Positions 1 to 30,170 of a DNA stretch of 33,450 bases are shown one piece after another. The position numbers and the translations under genes were made by a program. The stretch comes from Actinophytocola xanthii. GTDB lineage: Bacteria; Actinomycetota; Actinomycetes; Mycobacteriales; Pseudonocardiaceae. Under the pieces are notes generated by a model that worked only from the letters and a program-made list of their open reading frames with translations, ran no database searches and was not told the DNA's origin. Each line of letters begins with the position of its first letter. Position 1 is the stretch's first letter. The DNA lies in contig NZ_MSIE01000075.1 in assembly GCF_001921205.1 (NCBI RefSeq), positions 1 to 33,450 of the forward strand, read 5' to 3'.

Positions 1-97
1 CGACGAGCCCGCCGACGGGTCCACCGACGGGTCCACCGACGACGACGCGGACAGACCCGACGGCGGCAGGTCCGACGTCCTGTCCTTCGCCTACTGA
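1..97 (+). CDS. cydA: Cytochrome bd ubiquinol oxidase subunit I, C-terminal end (partial)
   Basis: Only the last 31 codons are in the window (reading frame starts at base 2, stop TGA at 95-97). The visible tail is acidic and low in complexity, with two copies of a DGST-like unit, and ends in LSFAY. Actinobacterial CydA proteins often end in a similar hydrophilic tail. The assignment rests mainly on position, because cydB follows after 15 bases on the same strand. CydA carries the haems and the quinol site of the bd oxidase, but none of that part is visible here. Confidence 0.75.
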   Translation, partial: DEPADGSTDGSTDDDADRPDGGRSDVLSFAY

Positions 98-1120: not shown

Positions 1121-4100
1121 GCCGCTCCGGCCCGCTGGGTGCACTGAGCCTGTCCAGGACCGCCCGCCGCGCGCTTGTCGGCTGCGCCGCGCTCGCCGTG
1201 GTGCAGGGGATCGCCCTGGTCGTGCAGGCGTGGGCGCTGGCGTCGGTTCTGGCCGACCTCGTCGGCGGATCCACCGCGCCGATCCACGGCCGGCTCGCCC
1301 TGCTCACTGGCGCGGTGCTCGCCCGCGCCCTGCTCGGCTGGGTCACCCAGGTCGTCGCCGCCCGCGCCGCCGCCGACACCAAGGCGGAGCTGCGGGCGGT
1401 CGTCCTGGACCGCGCGCTCGCGGCCGGGCCGGAGTGGATAGTCCACCAGGGGCCCGCCGAGTTGACCGCGCTCGCCACCCGCGGGCTGGACGCGCTCGAC
1501 GCGTACTTCACCGTCTACCTGCCGGCACTGGTGAACTCGGCGGTGCTGCCGCTGGGGGTGGCCGGCGTGCTCCTGCTCACCGACTGGCCATCGGCCGTGG
1601 TGATCGCGCTGACCCTGCCGCTGGTGCCGCTGTTCGCCGCGCTGGTCGGCCTGCGCACCAGGGACCGGGTAGCGGCCGCCGCGGACAGCACGGCGCGGCT
1701 GTCCGGCCACTTCCTCGAGCTCGTGCGCGCGCTGCCGGTGCTCGCCTCGTTCCGCCGGGCCTCCGCCCAGGCGGACGTGGTGCGCCGGGTCTCCGACGCC
1801 CACCGCCGCGCCACGATGGACACCCTGCGGCTGGCGTTCGCCTCGGCGTTGGTCCTCGAGCTCGTGGCCACCCTGTCGGTCGCGCTGATCGCGGTGGTGA
1901 TCGGCGTCCGGCTGGTCTCGGGCGACCTCGCGCTCTCGATCGGCCTGTTCGTCCTGCTGCTGGCGCCGGAGTGCTATCTCCCGCTGCGGGCCGCGGGGGC
2001 TGCCCACCACGCGAGCGAGGACGGCATGGAGGCGGCCCGCCGGATCGCCGAGCTCCCGGTCGCGCCCGAGGTCCCGACCGGGCCGGCCCCCTCCGGCGTC
2101 CTCGAGGTCCGCGACCTGCGCGTCCTCCGCCGCGACGCCTTCGCTCCCGACGGGCTCTCGTTCACCGCCCGCCCCGGCGAGATCACGCACCTGAGCTCAC
2201 CGAGCGGCACGGGCAAGTCGACGGTCTTCTCTGTCCTGCTGGGCTTCACCAGACCGACCGCCGGCACCACCCGGGTCGGCGGCGTCGATCTGTCCACGGT
2301 GGACCCCGAGCGGTGGCGCCGGACGGTGGCCTGGGTTCCCCAGCACCCCGTGCTCACCGCTCCAACCGTCCTCGCCGAGCTCGTCGAGTCGGTCGCCGAC
2401 CTGGTTCCCGAGCCGCCTGCGCGGGCCGAGCTGTCCGCCGCGGCCACCGAGGTGGCCACCGAGGTGGCCGCGGAGCACCTTCTGGACCGGCCCACCGCCG
2501 AGCTCTCGGTGGGCGAGCGGCAGCGGGTGGCCGTGGCCAGGGCCCTGCTTCGGTTGCGCCACGGCGCCACCCTGCTCCTGCTCGACGAGCCGACCGCCCA
2601 CCTCGACGGCGCCACCGCCGGCCGGGTGATGGCCGCGATCGACGGGGCAGCGGCCGCCGGCGCGACGGTCGTCCTCGCCAGCCACCGCATCGCGGAGTCC
2701 AATGTGGATTCGGTACCCGCGCGCCGTCGGGAACGCCTCGCCGGCGCGGTGACCCCGCGCCCGGCCCGCCTGCGTCCCCTGCTCACCCGCCGGCTGCTCT
2801 ACGGCGCCCTTCTCGGTGCCGCGGCACTGACCGCCGGGATCGCGCTCACGGCGACCTCGGCCTGGCTCGTCGCCAAGGCCTCCCAGCAGCCGCCGATCCT
2901 CATGCTCTCGGTCGCCGTCGTCGGGGTCCGCGCGTTCGGTCTCGCCCGCGCCGGGCTGCGCTACGCCGAACGCCTGGTCACCCACGACGCCGCGTTCCGC
3001 GCCGCCGGCGAGCACCGGGTCCGGCTCTGGCGCTCGCTCACCCCCGCCCACGCCGACCGGGCCGACGGCCTGGCCCACGACATCGACACCGTGCGCGACC
3101 TGACGCCGCGCGTGTTGACCCCACCGCTGGTCGCCGGACTGGTGGTGGCCGCGAGCGTGCTCGTCCAGCTGGTGATCCTGCCGGCCGCGGCGCTCACGCT
3201 CGCCATCGCGGTCGTGGCGGCCGGACTGGGTGCACCGGCCGCCGCGACCGCGCTCGACCGGCACGCCGGCAGCGCGCAGGCTGCCGGCCGGCGGCGCCTG
3301 GCGACCGGGATGCTCACGCTGCTGACCGCGGCGGCCGACCTGGTCGCGGTCGGCGCTCACCGCCGCCACCGTGCCAAGCTGGGCCGGGTCGACGCCGACC
3401 TGGCCCGGACCGCACGCCGCGAGGCGTTCGGCGCGGGTGCGGCGACCCTGCTGATCACGCTGGCCACCGGTGCGGCCACGGTCGCCGGCACCTGGCTCGC
3501 CGCCGACGCCGTGGCAGGCGGCACCCTGGACCCCCTGCTGGCCCCGATCCCGGCACTGCTGCCGCTGGCCCTGGCGGAGGTGCTGGCGCTGCTCCCCCCG
3601 GCCGCCCAGCACCGCGACGCGCTGCGCGCGGCCCTGTCCCGTCTCCTCCCGCGGGCCGAGACCGCCCCGGTTCCGCCACCGGTGGAGACAGCCGACATCC
3701 GGCTGCGCGCGGTCGACGCCCGCTGGCCGGGCGCGGCCGAGCCGGTCCTGTGCGACCTCACCCTGGACATCCCGCACGGCACGCACGTCGCCGTCGTGGG
3801 CCCCTCCGGGGTCGGCAAGTCGAGCCTGCTGGCCCTGCTGTTGGGCTTCCTGCCGGCCGAGGGCGGCACTGCCGTGCTGCCGAACCGGGTCGCCTGGTGC
3901 CCGCAGGACCCGATGCTGGTCTCCACGACGGTCCGGGAGAACCTGCGCATGGCCGACCCCACCGCGAGCGACGACCGCCTGCGTGCCGCCCTGCTGCGGG
4001 CCGGCCTCCCCGGCTGGGTCGACCGGCTCGACACCCGCCTGGACGGAGGAGCGGCCTCCGCCTCCGGCGGCGAGGCCCAGCGCCTGGCCCTGGCGAGGGC

Positions 4101-26617: not shown

Positions 26618-29086
26618 TCAGCGTTTCCAGAAGTTCTTTCGGGGGTTGGGCCTGGGCTTGCTGAAGGTGTTGAGCGTCGCTATGGCCATGAACCAGAGGG
26701 AATCGGCCATGTTCGGGTTGTCGGTTGGCTTGGCGAGGTCCTTGGCCAGGGCGGCCAGGGAGGTGCGGGCCAGCTCGTCCTCGCCGGTCTGCTTCCAGTG
26801 GTCGAGGAGGGCGAAGATGCGCTCGGCGAGGGCGGCGAGCAGGGCCGCGCGTGCCCAGACATCCTTTTTGTCGTCGGCGAGCAGTGCGCGCCGTTCGTTG
26901 ATCGCGAAGTCGATCAGCGTGGGCGGGGAAGTGGGCATTGCCGGAGGAGTTGGTTGTGCCTGGGGTGGGTGCACGTCGGGTTGCTGCGGTTTGCGGCCGC
27001 GGGCCTTTCCTTTCAGCGGATCCGGGGCGAGGTCCGCGGCGGTGGGACGGGGTGGGAGCCGACGGCCGACGGTGGGGCGAGGATGCGCGCTCTCGGCGAC
27101 GTAGGTGGTCGCCGCCGGAGCGGCGGGGGACGGTGCGAACGCCAGGGGGACGCCCCGGCCCATGGGGGCACTGGCACTGGCACTGAAGTTGGAGCCGAAG
27201 AGGGCCTGAGGCTCCCACCCGCTTGGTAGGTCGACGGGCTGCGTCACCCGGTGCACCTGGCCGGATTCGTTGACCACGCGCTCGTCGACCGCCACGAAGG
27301 CGGTGAAACGGCACAGCACGCCGAACCCGAGCGAGGTCTCGACGATCCGCTTCTCCAGGTGGGACTGGTCGCCGGTGCCGGATACGTAGCGATCCTCCAG
27401 GTCCCGGATCCTCGACCTGGCCCACAGCGCGCTCAACGCCTGGTTGTCGCTGCGGCTGGCTTCGACCGAGACCTCCCAGCCCTGATCGTTGGTGACCGTG
27501 ACCGTTCCGCTGGGTTCCCCGGTGTACCGGCCCGTCAACACCAGAGGCACGCCTTCGAACAGGTCGGGCACCGGGAACGGAGCGAACGAGTCGGCGTCCA
27601 CCGCGAGGCCGGACGAGGTGAGCCGCAGCCCAGTGACGACGGGGGCCGCGATGCGGCGATGGATGTGCTGCATGACCTCGTCCAGGCGGTCCTCGGACTC
27701 GACCAGCTCGCAGCGCCCGTGGGCACCCGCCAGGCGCTGCAGGAACGCCTCGTTCACTGCCCGGTCGACACCGACCGTGTGCACCCGGACGCCCTGGAGC
27801 TCCGGTGACAACCGTTGCAACACCTGGTCCTCGTTGCCGACCTGCCCATCGGTGACGAGGACGAGCACCCTGTCCTGGGTGCTGTCGGCCCCGAGCAGAG
27901 CCGCGGCTCTGGTCAGCGGCTCCAGCATCTGCGTTCCGCCGTAGGCGTCCACCGTGCCCAGGAACTCGACGGCGCGGAAACGGTTGCGATCGCTGGCCTC
28001 CACCAGGCCCTCGCCCAGCGACGGCGGCGTGACGACGACGTTGTCGAACGCGAGCACCGCGAACCGGTCCGCTGTGTTCAGCGTGTCGATGATGCGGGCG
28101 GCCGCACGCCGGGCGGCCACCATCTTCCAGCCCTTCATCGAGCCCGAACGGTCGAGCACGAGCACCACGTCTCGGGGGGTCGCCTTCGCCGACGCCGTGG
28201 GTGGCAGGACCGTCAGTGCGAACGTGCCCCCGGTGCCCGAATCAGACGAGTCGGGACGCACGGCCAGCGACGAGCGGATCGCCGTGTCGTCGGTGAAGGT
28301 CAGGCGCAGCAGGAAGTCACGGTCGGCACGTTCCCCCGGCTCGAGGCGGACCCGCAGGCCGCCGCTGTCGTCCGCGGTGGTGGCGGTCGAGTGGAGGCTT
28401 GTCGAGACACCGGCGAGTGGAAGGCCGGCCGGGTCGATGTCGACCGCTACGGAAAGGTTCACCGGATTCGGAAAACCGGGCAGTAACACGGGCGGACTGA
28501 TCCTCGAGGCGTCCGGGACGGCGTCCGTGTCCTGCGCGACGCCGTCACCGACCTGCCCGTCGGGGAGCGGCTCACCAGGGATGAAGCGAGGAGCGACCAC
28601 CAACGGGAACCGGAACGTCGCGGACCCGTCCTCGTAGGCGAGGGCGCCGGCCAGCGTCACGTGCACGCTGACCCGCTCTCCGGGCATGATGTTGCCGACC
28701 CGCATCGTGAACACGCCGGGCCGTTCCTCCTCGGCGATCGAGGCACGCTTGCCCTCCGCGACGGCCTGGTCGTAGTCGGCTCGGGCTGCTTCTCGCTCCT
28801 TGAGCACGCCTTGGACGATGCGCCCGTCGGCCTCCATCCGCAGGGCTGTAACCGCGGCCCGGGGCGGCAGCGGGAAGATGAAGGTGGCCTCCAGCGGCTC
28901 GCTGTGGGGGTTGCGAAAGCCCTGCGTCAGCTCGATGGCCGAGGCCAACCCGGTGAGTGCGGCCCGAATGTCGATCGTGTCCAGCGGAAGGTTGCCCCGC
29001 TCGGTCCGCAGGCACCCGAGCCCGTCGTCGTCGCTGGGGCTGGTCGGCGCCTCGGTCAGGTCCATGAGGTCGACGCGCATGTTCAT
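26618..29086 (-). CDS. VIT and von Willebrand factor A domain protein
   Basis: This 822-aa protein has the inter-alpha-trypsin layout. A VIT domain lies at about 20-150 (AIELTQGFRNPHSEPLEATFIFPLPPRAAV, then ARADYDQAVAEGKRASIAEEERPGVFTMRVGNIMPGE). A VWA domain lies at about 305-480 with an intact MIDAS: Asp312-x-Ser314-x-Ser316 in DRSGSMKGWKM, the Thr in AYGGTQML and Asp in VTDGQVG. A proline-rich linker (about 650-725) follows, then a helical C-terminal domain. No signal peptide is visible, so it is probably cytoplasmic. Bacterial VIT/VWA proteins are poorly understood metal-dependent protein-binding scaffolds. ATG 29086 follows AAAGGAA; its ATGA overlaps the stop of the MerR gene, so both are one operon. 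Confidence 0.88.
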   Translation of the reverse strand: MNMRVDLMDLTEAPTSPSDDDGLGCLRTERGNLPLDTIDIRAALTGLASAIELTQGFRNPHSEPLEATFIFPLPPRAAVTALRMEADGRIVQGVLKEREAARADYDQAVAEGKRASIAEEERPGVFTMRVGNIMPGERVSVHVTLAGALAYEDGSATFRFPLVVAPRFIPGEPLPDGQVGDGVAQDTDAVPDASRISPPVLLPGFPNPVNLSVAVDIDPAGLPLAGVSTSLHSTATTADDSGGLRVRLEPGERADRDFLLRLTFTDDTAIRSSLAVRPDSSDSGTGGTFALTVLPPTASAKATPRDVVLVLDRSGSMKGWKMVAARRAAARIIDTLNTADRFAVLAFDNVVVTPPSLGEGLVEASDRNRFRAVEFLGTVDAYGGTQMLEPLTRAAALLGADSTQDRVLVLVTDGQVGNEDQVLQRLSPELQGVRVHTVGVDRAVNEAFLQRLAGAHGRCELVESEDRLDEVMQHIHRRIAAPVVTGLRLTSSGLAVDADSFAPFPVPDLFEGVPLVLTGRYTGEPSGTVTVTNDQGWEVSVEASRSDNQALSALWARSRIRDLEDRYVSGTGDQSHLEKRIVETSLGFGVLCRFTAFVAVDERVVNESGQVHRVTQPVDLPSGWEPQALFGSNFSASASAPMGRGVPLAFAPSPAAPAATTYVAESAHPRPTVGRRLPPRPTAADLAPDPLKGKARGRKPQQPDVHPPQAQPTPPAMPTSPPTLIDFAINERRALLADDKKDVWARAALLAALAERIFALLDHWKQTGEDELARTSLAALAKDLAKPTDNPNMADSLWFMAIATLNTFSKPRPNPRKNFWKR

Positions 29087-29727
29087 CGGCGTTCCTTTCC
29101 TGCGGAGGACGCCAGACCGAGTCGGTCCAGCAGGTCAAGCAACGGGGCGGCGGCCGCCGCCACGGCGGCCAGTTCGTCGGGCTCGAGTGGGCGGGCGGCG
29201 GTGTCGAGCACGACCGTGACTCCATCGCCGAGACGAATCCCGTAAGCGGTCGAGGCCGCTGGCACTGGTTCGTGAGAGCGCGCTGGCCCGCTGACAGTGA
29301 CAGTGTCATCGTCGGCGACGACACTGTTGGCGTCGGAGGTGGGGGTATGGGTCGCCGTCCGCCAGAACGCCCCGACGCGGACCGGTTCACGCGTCCAGGA
29401 CACGTCGATCGGGGAGACCTGGGCGATCTCGGCGAGCTGTCGGTTGCTCGCGCCCACGAGTTCTTCCTGGATCTCGGCGAGGGTGCGTCCGGCGGCCTGA
29501 AGGCGTTTCACGGCGGCGAGTTGGAGCAGGTGGCGGGGGCCGTACAGTGCAGTGCGACCTCGCGCTGCGACGGGCCGGTCGACCAGGCCGATCGTCGTGT
29601 ACCACCGGATGGTGCGACGGTTCGGCAGCTCCCGAACCCGGCCGTTCGACTGCCCGTCGTAGTTGCCCGACAGCAGTTCGGCCACTTGGTCCGGGAGCTG
29701 TTCGATGGTCCACAACTCCTCGGTCAT
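29083..29727 (-). CDS. MerR-family transcriptional regulator
   Basis: This 214-aa regulator has a MerR winged-helix domain at about 5-100: WTIEQLPDQVAELL, an insertion, then NRRTIRWYTTIGLVDRPVAARGRTALYGPRHLLQLAAVKRLQAAGRTLAEIQEEL. The C-terminal region (about 105-214) has no metal-binding cysteines; it ends in a predicted beta segment and a helix (LEPDELAAVAAAAAPLLDLLDRLGL), so it may bind a protein or small molecule. The ATG at 29727 is leaderless: TTGACA, a 17-base spacer, CAAGAT, 6 bases, ATG. The gene is divergent from the NUDIX gene and overlaps the VIT/VWA start by four bases. A copy of the operator palindrome TGACAGTGTCA lies inside its own coding region. Confidence 0.9.
   Translation of the reverse strand: MTEELWTIEQLPDQVAELLSGNYDGQSNGRVRELPNRRTIRWYTTIGLVDRPVAARGRTALYGPRHLLQLAAVKRLQAAGRTLAEIQEELVGASNRQLAEIAQVSPIDVSWTREPVRVGAFWRTATHTPTSDANSVVADDDTVTVSGPARSHEPVPAASTAYGIRLGDGVTVVLDTAARPLEPDELAAVAAAAAPLLDLLDRLGLASSAGKERR
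29298..29308. promoter_or_regulatory. Intragenic copy of the TGACAGTGTCA palindrome
   Basis: TGACAGTGTCA is identical to the palindrome at 29751-29761 in the merR/NUDIX promoter, about 450 bases away. It sits inside a larger imperfect palindrome that runs to an ACACTGT near 29326. It could be an auxiliary operator for looping or a roadblock. Confidence 0.45.
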
Positions 29728-29773
29728 ACTGCAATCTTGACAGTTAACGATGACAGTGTCAAGGTTGCAGTAT
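29726..29773. promoter_or_regulatory. Symmetric divergent leaderless promoter and operator of merR and the NUDIX gene
   Basis: A 17-bp inverted repeat with one mismatch (29726-29742 and 29757-29773) encloses 14 bases. Each arm carries TTGACA or its complement. Plus strand: TTGACA (29737-29742), 17 bases, CAAGGT (29760-29765), 6 bases, ATG 29772. Minus strand: TTGACA (29762-29757), 17 bases, CAAGAT, 6 bases, ATG 29727. Each -35 overlaps the -10 of the opposite promoter. TGACAGTGTCA (29751-29761) is a further inner palindrome, the likely MerR site. Confidence 0.75.
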
Positions 29774-30170
29774 GGCTCCCATCGACAAGATCGCCTGGAT
29801 CCACCTGGTGAACGGCAGGGTTCTCAGTACCCGCTCCCGCGGCAAGGACGTCTTCTACCTGCCCGGAGGTAAGCGCGAGCCGGGGGAGACCGATCTCCAG
29901 ACCCTCGCCCGGGAGATCGACGAGGAGCTCTCGGTCGCCATCATCCCGGACAGCGCGGCTCACGCGGGCACGTTCGAGGCGCAGGCTCACGGTCATGCGG
30001 CGGGCACCACTGTGCGCATGACCTGCTACACGGCCGACTACCGCGGCACACTCGCGCCCAGTAGCGAGATCGCCGAGCTCGTCTGGCTCACCTATGCCGA
30101 CCGGCCCCGCGTGTCCCCGGTCGACCAGGCGATCTTCGACCATCTCTTTCAGGCCGGGCGGCTCTCGTGA
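29772..30170 (+). CDS. NUDIX hydrolase
   Basis: This 132-aa protein is a single NUDIX domain that should hydrolyse a nucleoside diphosphate linked to another group. The NUDIX box is almost intact: Gly33, Glu39, then REIDEELSV from Arg47 with metal-binding glutamates 48, 51 and 52. The glycine near the end of the box is Ser54, a mild change. The substrate is unknown. The ATG at 29772 is leaderless and set by the divergent promoter shared with merR, so expression is probably under MerR control. It ends 17 bases before the stop of the convergent metallopeptidase gene. Confidence 0.9.
   Translation: MAPIDKIAWIHLVNGRVLSTRSRGKDVFYLPGGKREPGETDLQTLAREIDEELSVAIIPDSAAHAGTFEAQAHGHAAGTTVRMTCYTADYRGTLAPSSEIAELVWLTYADRPRVSPVDQAIFDHLFQAGRLS

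Follow-up and report, generated by a model that had tools for sequence, protein, structure and literature searches.

The window analysed here is a stretch of 33,450 nucleotides from Actinophytocola xanthii (contig NZ_MSIE01000075.1), with a GC content of 68-77% per 2-kb block. On its minus strand lies a gene for a MerR-family regulator of 214 aa (merR, 29083-29727), followed on the same strand by a gene for a VIT/VWA protein of 822 aa (26618-29086; PF08487 and PF13768), which overlaps the end of merR by 4 bp. On the other side of merR a NUDIX hydrolase gene (PF00293) runs along the plus strand (29772-30170), and beyond it are genes for a zincin-like peptidase and a septum-formation domain protein (minus strand), then seryl-tRNA synthetase (plus strand). 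The regulator is placed in the MerR family, which is defined by an N-terminal winged helix-turn-helix of the MerR type, by a match to PF13411 (40.8 bits, cut-off 21.6), and the best fold neighbours of its structural model are MerR proteins, none of them at E <= 0.001. The Pfam match begins only at residue 37, and residues ~20-36, ahead of the recognition part, are presumably an insert relative to ordinary MerR proteins. PADLOC returned no match for the MerR or the VIT protein; the NUDIX protein matched the candidate model PDC-S07 (E 2.5e-12), which may reflect merely the NUDIX domain.

A merR ortholog is found in all five other genomes sampled from the same genus (E 1e-49 or better). A named genome collection yielded 17 merR loci, five labelled Actinophytocola and the others Kibdelosporangium, Rhodococcus, Actinosynnema, Frankia, Actinoplanes, Kutzneria and a Streptosporangiaceae. 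One contig, labelled Rhodococcus rhodnii NRRL B-16535 (L035), groups inside Kibdelosporangium in the merR tree, and its label is perhaps wrong. Weak loci (L012-L030) were left out before counting, and several loci of the named collection come from genomes that the other samples also contain. From 92 merR records, removal of 21 with an identical merR body left 71 distinct orthologs, among which the distant, long-branched L105 and L106 are counted throughout. In 66 of the 71 loci merR is followed on the same strand by the VIT/VWA gene; a VIT/VWA match is absent in two rows, one of which has no sequence left.

Between merR and the NUDIX gene is an inverted repeat (29726-29773), with 17-bp arms (29726-29742 and 29757-29773) of which 16 of 17 positions pair around a 14-base centre, as the preliminary description of this DNA had claimed. 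The arms can be extended to 18 bases (29725-29742 and 29757-29774, 94% pairing). When the window was scanned for 17-bp arms with at most one mismatch and a gap of 0-30 bases, comparable repeats appeared in two other places, near 3207 and 8847, both GC-rich. Also as described, the repeat carries TTGACA-17-CAAGRT-6-ATG on both strands. The predicted leaderless merR promoter (29727-29762, minus strand) consists of TTGACA at 29762-29757, a 17-base spacer, CAAGAT at 29739-29734 and 6 bases to the ATG and start at 29727; its mirror before the NUDIX gene (29737-29772, plus strand) consists of TTGACA at 29737-29742, 17 bases, CAAGGT at 29760-29765 and 6 bases to the ATG and start at 29772. CAAGRT is a weak -10 box, and an AAGG 7 bases before the NUDIX ATG could also serve as a weak ribosome site. 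The identical geometry and the overlap of each -35 with the opposite -10 (3 bp) hold as first described, but the promoters are not face to face: they are divergent and overlapping and point outward, with predicted starts 45 bp apart. Within the repeat, the reported inner palindrome TGACAGTGTCA was located at 29751-29761.

The palindrome at the merR promoter

The conserved unit among relatives is an 11-bp palindrome, TGACASTGTCA. In 69 of the 71 orthologs an exact copy is present no more than 230 bp upstream of the aligned part of merR, and the remaining two (L066 and L093) carry variants. The preliminary description would have looked for loss of the repeat in relatives that keep the divergent merR/NUDIX pair, but none of the 71 loci other than the window has that pair. 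Two or more exact promoter copies are present in 24 rows and one in 45, many of the latter with a second, imperfect copy whose centre is 13-14 bp away. Commonly, the first unit sits on the -35 TTGACA and the second stops at the -10, while a group of seven rows has an extra unit upstream of the -35 instead. In the window, the complete putative operator (O1, TGACAGTGTCA, 29751-29761) overlaps the merR -35 and the spacer/-10 edge of the NUDIX promoter, and a degenerate second site (7/11, 29738-29748) overlaps the NUDIX -35 and the merR -10; some relatives have this second site complete or as a 10/11 match.

The leaderless geometry predicted for merR is likewise conserved. The form TTGAC-spacer 16..19-nAnnnT was matched in 69 of the 70 orthologs with a located core (L045 has no located core and L064 no promoter match), including L105 and L106, which match only with implausible -10 boxes. 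Spacers are 17 or 18 bp in nearly all of these 69 rows, and the start codon is mostly 6 bases past the -10. This differs from classical MerR activators, which have a spacer of 19-20 bp with the operator inside it.

The tandem pattern TTGACASTGTCAN{2,6}CASTGTCA occurs in 24 of 249 genomes of the family, at one place each (one of them read on both strands). All 24 genomes are among the 40 with a merR ortholog, every place is the merR promoter, and the pattern was not found in the 209 family genomes without a merR match at E 1e-25. It is strict enough to miss 16 of the 40 merR-positive genomes, including that of the window, whose second unit is degenerate. Among 296 genomes of the class, of which 17 are merR-positive, the pattern occurs in 12, all merR-positive and always beside merR. 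A wider regulon was considered and set aside, as the tandem motif was seen only at merR in the genomes of both samples. The distribution in the family makes it very probable that the MerR protein binds the element.

Exact single copies of the 11-mer outside merR number 0-4 in 21 of 22 genomes searched, and a reversed control pattern gave 0-3 per genome in the same 22. The 8.34 Mb genome of the window holds three exact copies, namely the merR promoter site, one inside merR and one in a gap between tetR-like and SDR-like genes. Palindromes such as GTTGACAGTGTCAAC lie in gaps whose flanking genes were identified by eye as tetR and SDR in two genomes, G000 and G005 (L048:1500-1512 and L156:1623-1660), and are perhaps a TetR protein's own operator with the same core; the core motif is therefore not exclusive to MerR. 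A single genome, G172, contains 26 exact copies, often clustered in or beside unrelated long genes (L153, L154, L155 and L157; five copies within ~230 bp in L153), and its merR has three intragenic copies. These may represent either a dispersed repeat or an enlarged regulon. Among the matches listed from the open-access literature, a scope mostly without subscription papers, no paper links TGACASTGTCA to a MerR protein and none describes the merR-VIT/VWA pair; matches for the 11-mer itself, judged by title and the start of the abstract, named no MerR regulator among those listed, and MatP appears there.

A copy within the merR coding sequence

A putative intragenic operator, an exact TGACASTGTCA at 29298-29308, lies inside merR in the codons for DTVT, 453 bp from the promoter site. 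A 10/11 copy (29292-29302) overlaps it, and 29298-29312 pairs with 29747-29761 at 93% over 15 bases. The site also falls within a 12-bp inverted repeat (29300-29327, 92%, 4-base gap), a possible hairpin in the merR message.

Exact intragenic copies are present in 21 of the 71 orthologs, where 0.16 would be expected from synonymous codons (400 codon shuffles per gene, with usage taken from merR and the following frame). Of 60 palindromes of the same letters sought inside merR, the motif was found in 21 of 71 rows and each of the other 59 in none, and downstream of merR, up to 1.4 kb, the exact motif occurs in 0 of 71. The copy usually encodes D-S-V-T-V. In 24 rows examined for codon choice, the serine codon AGT is used at 21 of 22 D-S-V places as against 14 of 187 other serine codons, and the threonine codon ACT at 10 of 10 D-T-V places as against 39 of 322 elsewhere. 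Together, these comparisons show selection at the DNA level on the intragenic motif, which is best read as an auxiliary operator. The place that encodes D-S-V in relatives reads D-G-V (GAT GGA GTC) in the window, and the window's copy is instead at D-T-V-T (residues 141-144), within a stretch (107-158) left disordered in a structural model of mean pLDDT 68.

On a tree of the 71 proteins, built from every well-filled column, those encoding the intragenic site among them, one branch (support 99/97) has the copy in 19 of its 24 rows; L114 and L085 have it as well, and six changes are needed. In five of the 22 genomes searched (G001, G002, G003, G168 and G215), the promoter and intragenic sites are the sole exact copies in the genome. 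The other 50 orthologs have no exact intragenic copy, and hence the family at large manages without one. No clear trade-off with the number of promoter copies was seen, the intragenic copy being present in 15 of 45 rows with one promoter copy, 5 of 24 with two and 1 of 2 with none. An internal promoter for the VIT gene at this site was also considered and set aside, as no convincing -10 could be seen by eye in eight orthologs.

The intragenic copy lies ~420-680 bp downstream of the promoter site, with one row having further copies out to 916 bp. Repression by looping calls for a distant second copy under selection at the DNA level, and such a copy is present (21 of 71 against 0.16). Helical phasing was not seen in the spacing of the two sites (R 0.15-0.29, 19 of 21 rows), so looping is without positive support from it, and at this range the absence of phasing neither proves nor excludes a loop. 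The lac operator O2, inside lacZ, is an auxiliary operator ~400 bp downstream in coding sequence; the difference here is that the operator lies inside the regulator's own gene.

The NUDIX gene and the outward promoter

The preliminary description took the repeat to serve the merR/NUDIX pair, a view that comparison with relatives does not support. A tblastn search with the window's NUDIX protein, with no fewer than 707 bp of upstream sequence available for every row, found NUDIX adjoining merR at 1 of 71 loci, the window's own, and mirror arms occur without NUDIX; on the same count, the idea that the repeat exists for a NUDIX promoter was rejected. Close homologs (69-79% identity) lie elsewhere in G001, G002 and G004, with no exact 11-mer in the stretches examined near them. 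G003 and G005 have weak NUDIX matches only, and there is no other close copy in the window genome.

Three Actinophytocola relatives (L031, L032 and L033), all without NUDIX, nevertheless have the outward promoter with an ATG at 6 bases, so the mirror promoter is independent of the NUDIX gene. In L032 and L033 the operator directly adjoins the zincin gene, which lies upstream of it, and the outward TTGACA-17-CAAGGT-TGCAGT-ATG is nonetheless intact; the outward frames there overlap the oppositely oriented zincin gene and are not read as genes. L031 has perfect arms and no zincin match upstream. The outward ATG has been lost in L038 and is absent in L041, which has a short GTG frame only. The arrival of NUDIX in the window seems to need fewer events than its loss in the relatives. 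Outer-arm symmetry beyond the operator consensus, in differing letters, is also seen in the promoters of L081, L083, L084, L046 and L114.

Proposed self-control of merR and its alternatives

The mirrored stretch looks like a self-control site of the regulator gene, placed before a merR-VIT/VWA operon. We consider it probable that it is the operator with which a distinct actinobacterial subfamily of MerR proteins controls its own gene, with co-repression of NUDIX and an auxiliary intragenic site. MerR dimers would bind TGACASTGTCA units ~13-14 bp apart over the merR -35 and -10, and would so keep polymerase off the leaderless merR-VIT/VWA promoter. As the unit is itself palindromic, two in tandem make a near-symmetric promoter that should be able to fire outward. 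NUDIX begins exactly at the outward start codon, and it is therefore predicted to be repressed together with merR. The complete site lies on the merR -35 and in the NUDIX spacer and reaches 2 bp into the NUDIX -10, and for this reason an occupied site should block both promoters. The intragenic copy most likely strengthens repression, either through a loop to the promoter site or by acting as a roadblock. MerR binding, repression on binding, the transcription starts and looping or roadblock are what we infer from a motif whose position is conserved, and whose tandem form is restricted to the merR locus in the genomes searched.

The preliminary description had suggested that MerR chooses the direction of transcription. 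This is not indicated here, since the complete site spans both promoters and joint repression is predicted. A directional switch, in which MerR on the complete site shuts merR and lets or helps polymerase move toward NUDIX, would draw on the asymmetry of that site, which sits on the merR -35 and in the NUDIX -35/-10 spacer, the position from which classical MerR proteins activate. SoxR offers a precedent, as at a bidirectional promoter of E. coli it activates soxS and directly represses soxR (PMC12825309, in the portion drawn on here). However, the complete site also touches the NUDIX -10, spacers of 17-18 bp in nearly all orthologs need no untwisting, and a gene found at 1 of 71 loci cannot explain conservation across the family, which leaves the switch improbable. 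Ownership of the motif by another DNA-binding protein, such as a TetR regulator, is more improbable still: forms like GTTGACAGTGTCAAC in the gaps of G000 and G005 between genes identified by eye as tetR and SDR point that way, but the tandem form is restricted to merR across 249 family and 296 class genomes. The lowest probability of all falls to the idea that the intragenic copy is kept for the protein, as a conserved D-S-V-T-V strand, and not as a DNA site. D-S-V-T-V is well conserved within its branch and lies at a predicted beta hairpin (162-174, in a low-confidence model), and yet AGT and ACT, the less used codons, are retained at nearly every place, 21 copies are observed against a synonymous expectation of 0.16, and in the window the motif sits in a disordered linker instead.

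A stronger challenge, although we still judge it unlikely, is that the outward promoter arose as a by-product, as did the longer outer arms, with NUDIX expressed weakly or by other means. The symmetry would then have arisen because tandem palindromes are symmetric anyway, or because template switching homogenised the arms. Outward promoters are found at 12 of 70 loci by loose criteria (L105 with an implausible -10), but an outward ATG at 6 bases at only four of 70, the window included. The arm letters vary by lineage while the symmetry stays (L031, L046, L114 and the Frankia loci L081, L083 and L084), the outward frames of L032 and L033 overlie the zincin gene, which is oppositely oriented, L038 has lost its outward start, and L041 retains nothing beyond a short GTG frame. 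Against this, NUDIX starts exactly at the outward ATG, 6 bases past the -10 as in merR, and the arms of the window and of L031 match beyond what an operator needs.

For self-control by MerR, the nearest worked example that we found is CvkR, a MerR-type repressor of type V-K CAST systems with a leaderless message (PMC9938897, as far as the sections used here describe it). Its palindrome, AnnACATnATGTnnT, is compact with a one-base centre, and at its tnsB target, with a 17-nt spacer, the site reaches over the start and into the -10 (PMC9938897). The motif described here has the same geometry, a compact palindrome with a single central base, and is predicted to be bound; the message is also predicted to be leaderless, with the geometry in 69 of 70 rows. 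The target genes and the motif differ, the cas12k target of CvkR has a spacer of 21 nt, and those sections of PMC9938897 mention no intragenic operator. The CvkR structure 7xn2 ranked fourth in the fold search, a weak match (E 0.066, 14% identity over 105 columns, from a model of mean pLDDT 68).

The bidirectional promoters of E. coli, including soxS/soxR, are similar in that one symmetric stretch drives transcription in both directions, with room for polymerase in only one orientation, and soxS/soxR also in that a MerR-family protein is involved, but they share a -10, and the distance between their starts is commonly 18 bp, with 10 or 23 bp also occurring (PMC12825309, same portion). Here there are two separate -10 boxes, and full promoters overlap from -35 to -10. 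The Rco switch of pLS20 likewise combines overlapping divergent promoters, a second operator, a DNA loop and a regulator that controls itself (PMC4207663, in the part consulted). It differs in that its regulator is unrelated and its loop has been shown while ours is proposed, and in that the second operator here lies within the regulator gene.

A fuller account of self-control by MerR, which we offer tentatively and at somewhat less than even chances, is that the repressor bridges promoter and intragenic operator, that the latter has moved within the gene, and that a travelling NUDIX gene took up the outward promoter. NUDIX would have joined the regulon through a ready-made leaderless promoter, with no new regulatory sequence. 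If in the window genome the operator did leave the D-S-V-T-V strand for the disordered linker, part of the protein sequence would be dictated by DNA binding.

The locus is a natural case of a regulator gene that carries an operator-like site under selection at the codon level. As relatives lack, shift or multiply the site, the role of intragenic operators could be tested by synonymous changes. Symmetric operators are also suggested to create spare outward promoters, which may serve as landing places for a gene. Finally, an uncharacterised VIT/VWA protein is encoded behind the regulator in several families of actinobacteria, so the motif would give a handle on when that protein is made.
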